From: Kiritimatiellales bacterium
Lineage (GTDB): Bacteria; Verrucomicrobiota; Kiritimatiellia; Kiritimatiellales; Tichowtungiaceae
DNA: 5,125 nt
Assembly (NCBI GenBank): GCA_028692515.1
Contig: JAQUXG010000080.1
Span: 2,097 to 7,221 of the forward strand
Direction of reading: 5' to 3'
This document shows, piece by piece, positions 1,068 to 5,125 of the stretch. Every line of letters starts with the position of its first letter. Position 1 is the stretch's first letter. The position numbers and the translations under genes are program-made. The notes beneath the pieces were generated by a model. It was not told where the DNA came from and did not search any database. It saw only the letters and a program-made list of their open reading frames with translations.

Positions 1068-1084
1068 TTTCCAAACATTGGAAA
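1068..1084. repeat. Intergenic copy of the TTCCAA-N3-TTGGAA palindrome
   Basis: The sequence TTTCCAAACATTGGAAA has perfect 7-base arms (TTTCCAA/TTGGAAA) around a 3-base spacer, ACA. It differs by one spacer base from the copy at 5079-5095 and shares the 6-base core arms with the copy at 3582-3596. A run of seven T starts 5 bases downstream, so a weak terminator-like role on the plus strand cannot be excluded, although the stem is A/T-rich. The recurrence argues for a dispersed genomic motif or a protein-binding site. Confidence 0.8.
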
Positions 1085-1117
1085 GTCGCTTTTTTTGGGC
1101 GTGCATAGCGGAGAAGC

Positions 1118-1183
1118 ATGGTCGAGCCGTCGCTTCTTAAAGACCCGCAGGTGCGCGAAGGATTATCGATGAATCGCATATAA
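1118..1183 (+). CDS. Possible 21-codon leader ORF upstream of cimA
   Basis: The ORF runs from ATG (1118-1120) to TAA (1181-1183) and gives 21 residues beginning MVEPSLLKDPQVREG. A GGAG at 1110-1113 sits 4 bases before the ATG, a better ribosome binding site than those of tgt or queH. It ends 95 bases before the cimA start. Branched-chain residues make up 6 of 21 (V2, L6, L7, V12, L16, I21). That is suggestive for a gene of isoleucine synthesis but is not the dense run typical of attenuation peptides. No clear pair of competing hairpins or a terminator follows it. It may be a chance ORF. Confidence 0.2.
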   Translation: MVEPSLLKDPQVREGLSMNRI

Positions 1184-1266
1184 ACCGGGTGGGTTTTTAG
1201 TTTTTCCAAAAACCGCGCCTCGGGGCTTTAATTCTGTGGATGGATTGTCTAATTTACGAGCCTTCC

Positions 1267-1272
1267 AGGGGG
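1267..1272 (+). promoter_or_regulatory. Ribosome binding site that sets the cimA start
   Basis: AGGGGG lies 6 bases before the ATG at 1279. It favours that start over the in-frame ATG at 1240, which would add 13 residues (MDCLIYEPSRGKA) with no family counterpart. It also favours 1279 over the ATG at 1285, two codons downstream. Confidence 0.7.
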
Positions 1273-1278
1273 AAAGCC

Positions 1279-4029
<2,751 letters not shown>

Positions 4030-4031
<2 letters not shown>

Positions 4032-4101
4032 ATTAATGCGTAACAAGTAATACGTAATTGGGAATTTTTCTTAATTACGCATCACGCATTACGAATTACG
4101 A
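4030..4101. repeat. Inverted array of degenerate 7-base repeats between tgt and queH
   Basis: The right arm is four tandem heptads: ATTACGC (4074), ATCACGC (4081), ATTACGA (4088) and ATTACGA (4095). The left arm holds the reverse-complement type: TGCGTAA (4037), CAAGTAA (4044) and TACGTAA (4051). The centre (about 4059-4073) is A/T-rich. Read from the centre outwards, the arms agree at about 19 of 28 positions, so the transcript could fold into an imperfect long hairpin. The array begins on the tgt stop codon and ends three bases before the queH ATG, so it fills the whole spacer. It belongs to the same family as the array at 4644-4714. It might limit readthrough from tgt or expose little ribosome-binding sequence for queH; both are inference. 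Confidence 0.85.
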
Positions 4102-4104
4102 TTT

Positions 4105-4656
4105 ATGAAAAACCCTGAACTCGAAACTTCGAACTCCAAACTGCTCCTCCACACCTGTTGCGCGCCGTGTGCGGCGCCGTCGGCGGAACGTCTGGTGCTC
4201 GAAGGGCGCGAGGTAATTCTCTATTTCAGTAACTTCAACATTCATCCCGAAGCGGAGTATCTGAAACGCCTCGAAACAGCCCGCAAACTGGCGCAGAAGA
4301 TGAACCTGGTCATTGAAGAAGATCAGTACGATCACGCCGAATGGCTGGCGCACATCCACGGTTTGGAAAACGAGCCGGAGAAAGGCGCGCGTTGCCGCAA
4401 GTGTTTTGAGTTCAGTCTGACCCGCACCAACCAGATGGCCGAGCGGCTCGGGATTGAAGCCTTTGCCACCACGCTCACACTCAGTCCACACAAAGTGTCG
4501 CGTATCATTTTTGAAATCGGCGCGCAGTTTCCGCGCTTTGTGCCGATCGACTTTAAAAAGCAGGGTGGCTTTCTGCGCAGCATTCAGCTAAGCGAGGAAT
4601 ACAACCTCTACCGCCAGAGTTATTGCGGGTGTGAGTTTTCTGTACGTAACGCGTAA
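4105..4656 (+). CDS. queH: Epoxyqueuosine reductase, QueH type
   Basis: This enzyme reduces epoxyqueuosine to queuosine in tRNA, the last step of the pathway, replacing the unrelated cobalamin-dependent QueG. The product has 183 residues, formerly the DUF208 family. Conserved motifs are LLLHTCCAPCAAP with C18, C19 and C22, FNIHPEAEYLKRLE, GLENEPEKGARCRKCFE with C97 and C100, TTLTLSPHK, and the C-terminal YRQSYCGCEFS with C174 and C176. These cysteines supply the [4Fe-4S] cluster and neighbouring iron site known for the family. ATG 4105 is the only suitable start before the first motif, but no Shine-Dalgarno precedes it. The first 11 residues (MKNPELETSNS) look like a non-conserved extension coded by 7-base repeats. 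The last three codons and the stop come from the downstream repeat array. Presence next to tgt supports the role. QueA, needed between the two steps, is not in the window. Confidence 0.95.
   Translation: MKNPELETSNSKLLLHTCCAPCAAPSAERLVLEGREVILYFSNFNIHPEAEYLKRLETARKLAQKMNLVIEEDQYDHAEWLAHIHGLENEPEKGARCRKCFEFSLTRTNQMAERLGIEAFATTLTLSPHKVSRIIFEIGAQFPRFVPIDFKKQGGFLRSIQLSEEYNLYRQSYCGCEFSVRNA
4110..4144 (+). repeat. Seven-base periodicity in the first codons of queH
   Basis: Five consecutive heptads can be laid out: AAACCCT (4110), GAACTCG (4117), AAACTTC (4124), GAACTCC (4131) and AAACTGC (4138), consensus roughly RAACTCN. The unit differs from the ATTACGN unit of the flanking arrays. It coincides with the poorly conserved N-terminal extension of QueH and runs into its first conserved codons (KLL). 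The copies are short and degenerate, so chance is not excluded. Confidence 0.55.
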
Positions 4657-4714
4657 CACGTGATGCGTAATTAAGTAATTCTCTCAATTACGGATGACTC
4701 ATTACTCGTTAATT
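4644..4714. repeat. Inverted array of degenerate 7-base repeats between queH and pgl
   Basis: The left arm reads ACGTAAC (4644), GCGTAAC (4651), ACGTGAT (4658), GCGTAAT (4665) and AAGTAAT (4673). The right arm reads ATTACGG (4687), ATGACTC (4694), ATTACTC (4701) and GTTAATT (4708). A pyrimidine-rich TCTCTC separates the arms. The unit and the inverted layout match the array at 4030-4101. The left arm encodes the end of QueH (R181, N182, A183 and TAA), and the right arm contains the pgl stop (complement of 4709-4711). Lying between convergent genes, the imperfect hairpin could act as a shared transcription stop, but there is no classical G+C stem with a T-run. Confidence 0.85.
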
Positions 4715-5125
4715 TGTCTGATCCGTCCAGATTTCGACGTTCGGATGATCGGCGAGGGCAACGCCCGCCGGAATGGTTTCCGGTTTTTTGAGAAGCGTTT
4801 GAATCATCTCTTTTTTATCCGCGCCGGTGGCGAGAATCAGAATTTTTTCAACCTTGTGCAGAAGAGTTGGAGTTACGCTGATGCGGTCGGGCTTTTCGGT
4901 TTTAATTACCGGAATCGTTAGGCGGGCATCGCGCAACGCGGCATCCTGCAGATTGAAAAGAGATGCGGTGTGTCCGTCTGTGCCGAGGCCGAGCAGTCCC
5001 AGAGGAATCCGTTCGATCCGGCTCACATCATTATGAAATATTTGTGCCGCCTGCTCAATCGGCAGGTCGGTTCTTGTTTTTCCAAGCATTGGAAAAAACG
5101 GAGAGATCGTTCCGAAATTACTCTG
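4709..5125 (-). CDS. pgl: 6-phosphogluconolactonase, C-terminal part (5' end outside window)
   Basis: This enzyme hydrolyses 6-phosphogluconolactone to 6-phosphogluconate, the second step of the oxidative pentose phosphate pathway, in the cytosol. The frame is open from the right edge to TAA (complement of 4709-4711) and gives 138 residues of a family usually about 220-270 long; roughly the first 100 are missing. The diagnostic motif is LLGLGTDGHTASLF (DGHTASLF at complement of 4955-4978), preceded by LPIEQAAQIF and followed by RISVTPTLLHKVEKILILATGADKK, the usual order. The edge begins with SNFGT, matching the family's conserved SN(Y/F)G segment, so the ATG at 5087-5089 is internal and not the start. 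Between SNFG and the IEQAA helix the protein seems about eight residues shorter than the Pseudomonas homologue as I recall it, and a palindrome lies exactly there. The gene converges with queH across a repeat array. Confidence 0.93.
   Translation of the reverse strand, partial: QSNFGTISPFFPMLGKTRTDLPIEQAAQIFHNDVSRIERIPLGLLGLGTDGHTASLFNLQDAALRDARLTIPVIKTEKPDRISVTPTLLHKVEKILILATGADKKEMIQTLLKKPETIPAGVALADHPNVEIWTDQTN
5077..5097. repeat. Copy of the TTCCAA-N3-TTGGAA palindrome inside pgl
   Basis: Perfect 9-base arms, TTTTTCCAA and TTGGAAAAA, flank the spacer GCA. This is the longest of the three copies in the window. Its central 17 bases match the intergenic copy at 1068-1084 at 16 positions. 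Read on the pgl strand it encodes FFPMLGK, in a locally short and poorly conserved part of the protein. Confidence 0.8.

Follow-up and report, generated by a model that had tools for sequence, protein, structure and literature searches.

Palindromes in the window and their host genes

The window, that is the whole stretch of 5,125 nucleotides that was analysed, contains three exact copies of the 15-mer TTCCAA-N3-TTGGAA (at 1069-1083, 3582-3596 and 5080-5094) and a degenerate copy, which are located relative to the genes as follows.

1069..1083, no strand: palindrome copy 1, TTCCAA-ACA-TTGGAA, between an argininosuccinate lyase-like gene and a LeuA-type synthase gene
2907..4031, + strand: tgt, queuine tRNA-ribosyltransferase (PF01702, E = 1.5e-162), host of copy 2 and of the degenerate copy
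3206..3220, no strand: TTCCAAACTTCGGAA, a degenerate copy within tgt that precedes copy 2 by 376 bp; its one mismatch falls within the YY degeneracy of the motif
3582..3596, no strand: palindrome copy 2, TTCCAA-ACC-TTGGAA, within tgt, where its codons read FQTLE
4709..5125, - strand: 6-phosphogluconolactonase-like gene running off the window (PF01182, E = 1.3e-19), host of copy 3
5080..5094, no strand: palindrome copy 3, TTCCAA-GCA-TTGGAA, within the 6-phosphogluconolactonase-like gene, which is on the - strand

A sequence-only reading of this stretch had recognized the three copies with their perfect arms and their spacers ACA, ACC and GCA, and had located the two coding copies in different frames (FQTLE in tgt on the + strand, FFPMLGK in the 6-phosphogluconolactonase-like gene on the - strand), which is the case. 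Of its coordinates 3582-3596 is exact, while 1068-1084 and 5077-5097 include extra T/A flanks around the 15-mers. If up to two mismatches are allowed, the window holds five matches as compared to a mean of 0.28 upon dinucleotide shuffling, with none of 200 shuffles reaching five.

The comparison of orthologous sites, which the same reading had proposed as a check, shows retention as well as loss. At copy 2, the motif is exact in seven of 11 congeneric tgt orthologues, carries one RR/YY change in three and is broken in one. The leucine codon of this site is TTG in 10 of 12 sequences, as compared to a mean TTG fraction of 0.12 over 23 invariant leucine columns; synonymous codons are held here. 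The degenerate tgt site is found at the same 376-bp distance from copy 2 in eight of the 10 relatives that cover the place, as read from the alignment. Two relatives align at copy 3, of which G007 keeps the motif (TTCCAAGCGTTGGAA) and G008 has lost it, and none of the relatives' stretches, some of which stop short of the place, aligns at copy 1.

Abundance and form of the motif

The window's own 1.81-Mb genome harbours 609 copies of TTCCAA-N3-TTGGAA and none of a reversed control, while 269 copies are present in the fetched stretches of the relative G010 (0.71 Mb) as compared to 0.10 expected from an order-3 Markov model. Of the inverted repeats in G010 with arms of 6 bases and a spacer of 3, TTCCAA is the sole strongly enriched one (269 copies; the next has 8). 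Codon or composition noise is ruled out by the 123 coding copies of G010, as only 1.27 are left after synonymous codon shuffling. The initial claims, namely that the copies do not arise by chance and are not accounted for by protein selection, are thus borne out by the own-genome count, the model and codon shuffling in G010 and the TTG codon held in tgt, with genome-wide counts far above the shuffled expectation.

Single errors are mainly A to G changes at arm positions 5 and 6, with TTCC nearly fixed, and 264 of the 269 G010 copies have C or G in the middle of the spacer. The actual motif is TTCC-RR-NSN-YY-GGAA. Uncompensated single changes dominate over compensated double changes in G010 (163 versus 12), G048 (41 versus 0), G018 (49 versus 2) and G000 (16 versus 2), and for this reason the palindrome looks like a protein site and not like a hairpin.

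Spacing and placement of the sites

Neighbouring sites are 22, 31/32, 42, 52, 63, 73 ... bp apart, which are multiples of about 10.5 bp; in G010, the commonest gaps are 22 and 31/32 (and 42) bp and the best-fitting helical repeat is 10.4-10.5 bp. Over 58 genomes, 2,126 pairs at 31-32 bp are found versus 20 at 25-27 bp (one nearly identical 27-bp pair is common to G014 and G023), and the in-phase count exceeds the out-of-phase count in all 32 genomes with at least 50 sites, six of which have fewer than five 31-32 bp pairs. Many copies of the palindrome are solitary.

For exact sites in G010, the register is pronounced at gaps of 16-60 bp (R=0.89, n=50) and 61-120 bp (R=0.87, n=23), is retained at 121-300 bp (R=0.67, n=14, p=0.0016) and is not detected at 301-1000 bp (R=0.16, n=33, p=0.42). 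In this genome, the spacing follows the period of about 10.5 bp to a distance of roughly 300 bp. With degenerate sites included, R in G010 is 0.91 if both sites are located in one gene (n=44) and 0.90 if both are intergenic (n=83). The fetched stretches of G018 (130 kb readable) displayed no register (degenerate sites at 16-60 bp, R=0.21, n=9, p=0.69); in the whole G018 genome 33 pairs are in phase versus 5 out of phase, and in all genomes labelled as its genus (g2) 138 versus 19.

By density, the palindrome is mostly intergenic. In the two genomes measured, G010 and G048, copies crowd just after stop codons, with 5.39/kb and 6.57/kb, respectively, at up to 75 bp from gene 3' ends and away from starts, as compared to 1.4-2.3/kb away from 3' ends. 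Enrichment near starts is slight (1.61 versus 1.44/kb in G010; 2.27 versus 1.76/kb in G048). A role as roadblock terminators in place of intrinsic ones is unsupported, as intrinsic terminators are found in a fraction of the 3' regions that amounts, for site absent versus present, to 0.15 versus 0.23 in G010 (p=0.16), 0.03 versus 0.04 in G048 (p=1) and 0.08 versus 0.20 in G018 (p=0.34).

In G048 (15 pairs) and G057 (11 pairs), the linkers of adjacent sites resemble each other no more than random ones do. Their similarity is slightly above random in G010 (0.42 versus 0.34, 9 pairs), where the centres of neighbouring sites also agree more frequently (0.17 versus 0.08), so that some local copying is possible there. 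Linker pairs at 90% or above amount to 1 of 1,378 in G010, 0 of 630 in G048, 2 of 120 in G057 and 0 of 36 in G000. One array keeps its places between G000 and G010 with differing linkers and centres, and at aligned places sites are gained or lost without indel. As the linkers are mostly unrelated, a tandem repeat array or tandem duplication is not supported.

Spread among genomes

Exact copies per genome range from 0 to 1,339 (G048) over the 58 genomes, and from 0 to 1,177 (G018) within g2. Among 387 genomes of the phylum searched, counts of at least 10 are confined to the window's class, which by kinship is Kiritimatiellia. Tens to 1,339 copies are present in many members of this class, to which Pontiella belongs. 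A link to Kiritimatiellota had already been suggested, without certainty, in the sequence-only reading, in agreement with the nearest named tgt being found in a record of Pontiellaceae, a family of that phylum.

Interpretation

TTCC-RR-NSN-YY-GGAA is a genome-wide site of one class, with close neighbours usually in helical register. In our view, it is probably read by a putative dimeric protein that would bind cooperatively along one helix face and organise the chromosome. Such a dimer would read the two half-sites; bound dimers would be in direct contact if two, three or four turns apart and might meet through a loop at larger whole-turn distances. The role of the clusters may lie in chromosome architecture or in insulating gene ends rather than chiefly in the control of promoters. 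A genome-wide binding site had headed the candidates of the sequence-only reading and is the best-supported one, while the binder was not found in the families and loci searched. The variation from 0 to 1,177 copies within g2 is odd for an essential architectural code and counts against this explanation, as do the missing register in the fetched G018 stretches, the 27-bp pair common to G014 and G023, the six copy-rich genomes with few 31-32 bp pairs and the many solitary copies. Palindromic dispersed sites of chromosome-organising proteins are established with matS/MatP, SBS/SlmA and NBS/Noc, where tens of copies are located in parts of the chromosome; the copies described here are far more numerous and in register, and we know of no mutual helical register for these systems.

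Across 58 genomes, none of the Lrp/AsnC, LysR, DtxR and Y1 transposase families gained support as the cognate protein, and array neighbours did not reveal it either. Beside the few arrays of array-poor genomes no common neighbouring regulator was found (seven loci read), and viral contigs with arrays yielded no candidate protein. In G050, the single pair directly precedes a restriction-enzyme-like gene, and the pair on G054:C13 is located inside an ArsR-like gene (both genes named by eye).

An unlikely alternative is that an ordinary global transcription factor, such as one of the Lrp/AsnC family, uses the palindromes as operators and binds at least two phased ones to control many promoters. 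LysR-type boxes are T-N11-A, and DtxR/MntR boxes are odd with a C/G centre. Among the 32 genomes with at least 50 sites, drafts of varying completeness, LysR has no match in 14, including G048 with its 1,339 copies, and the DtxR type has none in 14, including G048, G010 and G000. Fis/HTH_8 is present in 57 of 58 genomes, those devoid of sites included (rho 0.18 versus sites). Lrp/AsnC is attractive in its geometry, as, in the accessible text of the reports, FL11 (Lrp/AsnC, FFRP) has 13 bp (semi-)palindromes and BarR the 15 bp TTGGAAAAATTACAA, and clusters of such short palindromes are aligned on one helix face with centres two or three turns apart (PMC2995911, PMC4977709), close to the 22 and 31/32 bp observed here. 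Of the 58 genomes, 52 carry an Lrp/AsnC gene, which is single in 48. On the other hand, the palindromes are concentrated at gene 3' ends, with hardly any enrichment near starts; BarR, in the same accessible text, has 21 bound loci as compared to up to 1,339 exact copies here, densest at gene 3' ends in two genomes. Furthermore, the Lrp recognition helix differs from one copy-rich genome to another, in contrast to the fixed TTCC, and looks similar in copy-poor genomes (based on 16 usable proteins out of 21; in five of 20 fetched stretches, either a neighbouring gene was picked or none), and Lrp presence does not follow site density (rho 0.03). The usual single Lrp/AsnC protein of the palindrome genomes does not fit as the reader, and the search for a co-occurring DNA-binding protein suggested initially gave no support for LysR, DtxR or Lrp/AsnC across the 58 genomes.

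Less weight is given to the other candidates put forward initially, an uptake signal, a methylation-linked motif and a dispersed repeat, as these would not be expected to produce neighbours in helical register with mostly unrelated linkers. For an uptake-type signal, which we consider rather improbable, a competence receptor would prefer DNA with the palindrome, and biased uptake and recombination would spread it by point changes, most freely where harmless. Patchy copy number in close relatives and gain or loss without indel fit such a drive. The DUS of Neisseria is directional. According to the accessible part of one report, it is likewise mostly intergenic, may follow a stop codon and has an origin tied to recombination; in the same part, transformation depends on one DUS, close inverted pairs act as terminators and helical register is unmentioned (PMC2397512), while here register extends to about 300 bp and is also present inside genes.

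It is very improbable that the palindrome is a REP/MITE-like mobile or hairpin repeat disseminated by a transposase, for example a RAYT, or that it forms an RNA hairpin, for instance a terminator. The hundreds of mostly intergenic inverted-repeat copies, the reappearance of some G057 linkers in separate arrays and a 21-bp length difference inside the site at one aligned place are in line with it, as are compensated doubles slightly above the independent-halves expectation in G010 (12 versus 5.8) and G000 (2 versus 0.4). Against it, uncompensated errors dominate, the stem not being kept by compensated changes, and compensated doubles are below this expectation in G048 (0 versus 2.4) and G018 (2 versus 5.0); furthermore, other aligned places differ without indel and intrinsic terminators are not replaced by sites. 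In G048, the change is G.U-compatible in the transcript at seven of eight informative 3' sites; this strand preference (7 to 1) is absent in G010 and G018, where wobble and mismatch forms are even (9 versus 10 after genes and 25 versus 27 inside; 2 versus 3 and 11 versus 13). Y1 transposase (RAYT) as a partner is not supported, as its count does not track density (rho 0.17), with none in G057 with its 111 sites and presence in 12 of 18 genomes with at most five sites.

Least probable of all is a methylation- or mismatch-repair-driven motif as proposed for cyanobacterial HIP1, in the accessible text of one report likewise a very frequent short palindrome that is low or nearly absent in some relatives, of 8 bp (GCGATCGC) and methyltransferase-linked (PMC4390886), as this leaves unexplained the helical register of neighbours and the 15-bp bipartite motif with a free centre.

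Returning to the dimeric protein organising the chromosome, a more far-reaching form can be put forward tentatively, namely a genome-wide helical-phase code of the Kiritimatiellia. A putative class-specific protein would read TTCCRR-NSN-YYGGAA and assemble on one helix face, with selection placing and keeping hundreds of sites in register, both downstream of stop codons and, inside genes, at synonymous positions; this may constitute a sequence-programmed chromosomal protein lattice, copied by their phages.

Significance

Beyond what had been read from the window, the helical register, the 3'-end preference, the RR/YY degeneracy and the C/G centre are new here. No earlier report of the palindrome is among the matches listed in the literature, which include many unrelated papers and leave subscription literature mostly outside. 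To our knowledge, most bacterial chromosome-shaping proteins have loose or few sequence-specific sites. The DNA of this one class bears a strong, countable record, in and between genes, that resembles cooperation on one face of the helix at distances of up to about 300 bp. If the protein is found, it would provide a direct handle on sequence-programmed chromosome architecture, with the helical repeat estimated from sequence alone (10.4-10.5 bp in G010) and genomes that naturally range from 0 to 1,339 sites available for comparison.

Copies in the window and in related genomes

The palindrome TTCCAA-N3-TTGGAA, claimed by the sequence-only reading to occur three times in the window, is indeed present in three exact copies, with two more matches carrying one and two mismatches:

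1069-1083, exact copy
3582-3596, exact copy
5080-5094, exact copy

The window comes from G000, a fragmented genome of 1.81 Mb, where it lies on contig 176, and encodes, according to Pfam, argininosuccinate lyase-like, LeuA-type synthase, tgt, queH and 6-phosphogluconolactonase-like products. As the nearest named tgt among the matches listed (82% identical) is a record of the Pontiellaceae, a family of the class Kiritimatiellia, Kiritimatiellota, relatives of the 'same class' are presumably Kiritimatiellia. Relatives of tgt (2907-4031) among the matches listed are nearly all Proteobacteria, bar one Pontiellaceae and one Victivallaceae record, with Alphaproteobacteria as the best proteobacterial matches (71%); an old horizontal transfer is possible, and near records are perhaps absent from the matches listed. 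A 70-nt inverted repeat, 79% complementary (4031-4100 and 4645-4714) and perhaps a small dispersed repeat, brackets queH.

G000 harbours 609 motif copies versus 0 of the reversed control, and the congeneric genome G010 has 269 versus 0.10 expected under an order-3 Markov model (0.71 Mb), which upholds the claim that the copies exceed chance. Counting against shuffles that keep codon content, as had been proposed, gave numbers far above expectation: 123 coding copies in G010 versus 1.27 (largest 3) over 30 synonymous-codon shuffles, 15 versus 0.07 in G000, 25 versus 0.4 in G018 and 3 versus 0.03 in G048. That protein selection does not explain the motif is thus borne out in G010. At the tgt site, 7 of 11 congeneric orthologs are exact, 3 have one RR/YY change and 1 is broken. 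With kinship ignored, 10 of 12 sequences use TTG for the leucine of the site (mean 0.12 over 23 invariant tgt leucine columns, none of the others reaching 0.8), and of the 11 sequences having glutamine there, 9 use CAA for it (mean 0.07 over 8 invariant glutamine columns).

The motif is present in 51 of 58 genomes, G000 included, with 0 to 1,339 copies and controls of 0 to 3. When 387 genomes drawn from the phylum were counted with C/G fixed in the motif centre, all 36 with 10 or more copies belonged, by our tally, to the window's own class, and genomes of other classes had at most 4. Within the class the distribution is patchy, with 0 to 1,177 copies inside genus label g2 and 0, 85 and 110 in g51.

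Helical register of neighbouring sites

Gaps between neighbours cluster at 22, 31/32, 42, 52, 63, 73/74, 84, 94/95 ... bp. Tested in G010 against a 10.5-bp period, gaps of 16-60 bp give a vector strength (R) of 0.89 (n=50), those of 61-120 bp 0.87 (n=23) and those of 121-300 bp 0.67 (n=14, p=0.0016), with no significant register at 301-1000 bp (0.16, n=33, p=0.42). Degenerate pairs (TTCC-RR-NSN-YY-GGAA) keep register both within one gene (R=0.91, n=44) and between genes (R=0.90, n=83), and exact short gaps in G048 are without exception 31 or 32 bp (n=18, R=0.96). Over the 58 genomes, 2,126 degenerate pairs lie at 31-32 bp versus 20 at 25-27 bp; in-phase pairs outnumber out-of-phase ones in 32 of 32 copy-rich genomes (50 or more sites), 6 of which have fewer than 5 pairs at 31-32 bp. 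Three observations count against the register reading: the contrast is weaker in g2 (138 versus 19), no register was detected among degenerate sites in 130 readable kb of G018 (n=9, p=0.69), and one 27-bp pair is common to G014 and G023 and almost unchanged. Arrays of the large genome G025 show 22-40-22, 42-22 and 22-42-22 bp layouts, at least some with what appears by eye to be a GC-rich inverted repeat in the long gap:

C5:190956-191054
C5:195075-195153
C1:2180272-2180372

Adjacent units in G048 and G057 have linkers no more alike than random ones, and in G010 (9 pairs) the likeness is slightly above that level. G000 and G010 have one array in common despite differing linkers and centres; two sites match the motif in both genomes, and the third matches in G010 and has lost the last motif base pair in G000 (TTCCAATGGTTGGAC). 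Alignments between families include three places where G010 has the site and the other genome lacks it with no indel inside; one aligned place has a 21-bp length difference within the site. G057 arrays (L081, L085 and others) hold up to seven sites; as some linkers are shared across contigs and several arrays lie at contig ends, whole arrays may have been copied there.

Placement

Site density according to our own dicodon gene caller

G010: intergenic 1.43/kb, in genes 0.20/kb
G048: intergenic 1.98/kb, in genes 0.016/kb
G000: intergenic 1.71/kb, in genes 0.16/kb
G018: intergenic 1.20/kb, in genes 0.22/kb
G019: intergenic 0.50/kb, in genes 0.10/kb
G014: intergenic 0.15/kb, in genes 0.04/kb
G057: intergenic 2.68/kb, in genes 0/kb

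In the first 75 bp downstream of a stop codon, where no start is near, degenerate sites reach 5.39/kb (G010) and 6.57/kb (G048), versus 1.44 and 1.61/kb (G010) and 1.76 and 2.27/kb (G048) away from 3' ends, and 2.08 and 3.39/kb, respectively, with both gene ends near. Convergent regions are most often site-bearing (0.42 in both). That the sites substitute for intrinsic terminators is not supported; where G010 regions hold a site and a terminator, the site lies within 3 bp of the T-run end in 8 of 18.

Arrays also occur on three contigs of a viral collection, one with terminase, portal and capsid genes (PHROGs) and another with transposition proteins. One phage contig carries two (L270:3429-3505 and L271:650-767), the former within a 130-codon reading frame (3188-3580) whose start resembles, by eye, a helix-turn-helix protein, so that part of a phage protein is encoded by the sites themselves. 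In G050, the single array pair found (L308:1501-1546) starts 16 bp upstream of a gene resembling, by eye, a restriction enzyme.

Discussion

Among 6-base inverted repeats with 0 to 12-base spacers in G010, strong enrichment is confined to the palindrome, its shifted registers and neighbour links. Uncompensated single versus compensated double changes number 163/12 in G010, 16/2 in G000, 41/0 in G048 and 49/2 in G018, where independent halves predict 5.8, 0.4, 2.4 and 5.0 doubles, a slight excess in the first two genomes and a deficit in the others. Wobble and mismatch forms are near even in transcripts of G010 (9/10 after genes, 25/27 inside) and G018 (2/3 and 11/13), and 7 versus 1 in G048. 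The TTCC of each arm is nearly invariant, positions 5 and 6 of the arm take most single errors, as A to G, and C or G occupies the middle of the spacer in 264/269 (G010), 44/44 (G000), 51/52 (G048) and 42/42 (G018) copies. Taken together, the error, compensation and wobble patterns on balance favour reading by a protein dimer rather than a hairpin in RNA or DNA. Centres vary by lineage, with GCC/GGC spacers in 36 of 52 G048 copies (L066-L080); in G010 the two outer bases of the spacer are seldom complementary (34/269; L086-L105, L221-L240).

The putative dimer would read TTCCRR/YYGGAA and cooperate with neighbours on the same helix face, touching them directly where two to four turns lie between and reaching them by looping the DNA over greater numbers of whole turns. 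That register fades past about 300 bp would be expected of looping DNA with twist fluctuation.

No cognate binder was found among LysR, DtxR and Lrp/AsnC proteins over 58 genomes. Of the 32 copy-rich genomes, 14 lack a LysR match and 14 lack a DtxR match. Lrp-like regulators, with sites two or three turns apart according to an excerpt (PMC2995911), share the geometry of the palindrome arrays, and an Lrp/AsnC gene is present in 52 of 58 genomes (single copy in 48). An Lrp/AsnC reader is nevertheless unsupported, with a recognition helix variable among copy-rich genomes and showing no evident difference between these and copy-poor ones (16 of 21 proteins usable). The arrays would thus work like an Lrp array without necessarily being one.

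The motif is reported nowhere among the literature matches listed, several result sets being dominated by unrelated papers. HIP1 (PMC4390886) and DUS (PMC2397512) appear, from excerpts, to be the nearest dispersed motifs among those compared; in those excerpts, unlike here, helical register is not seen.

Since the preference for 3' ends and the copies inside genes disfavour promoter control as the main role, we argue that the sites would mainly serve chromosome organisation or insulation.
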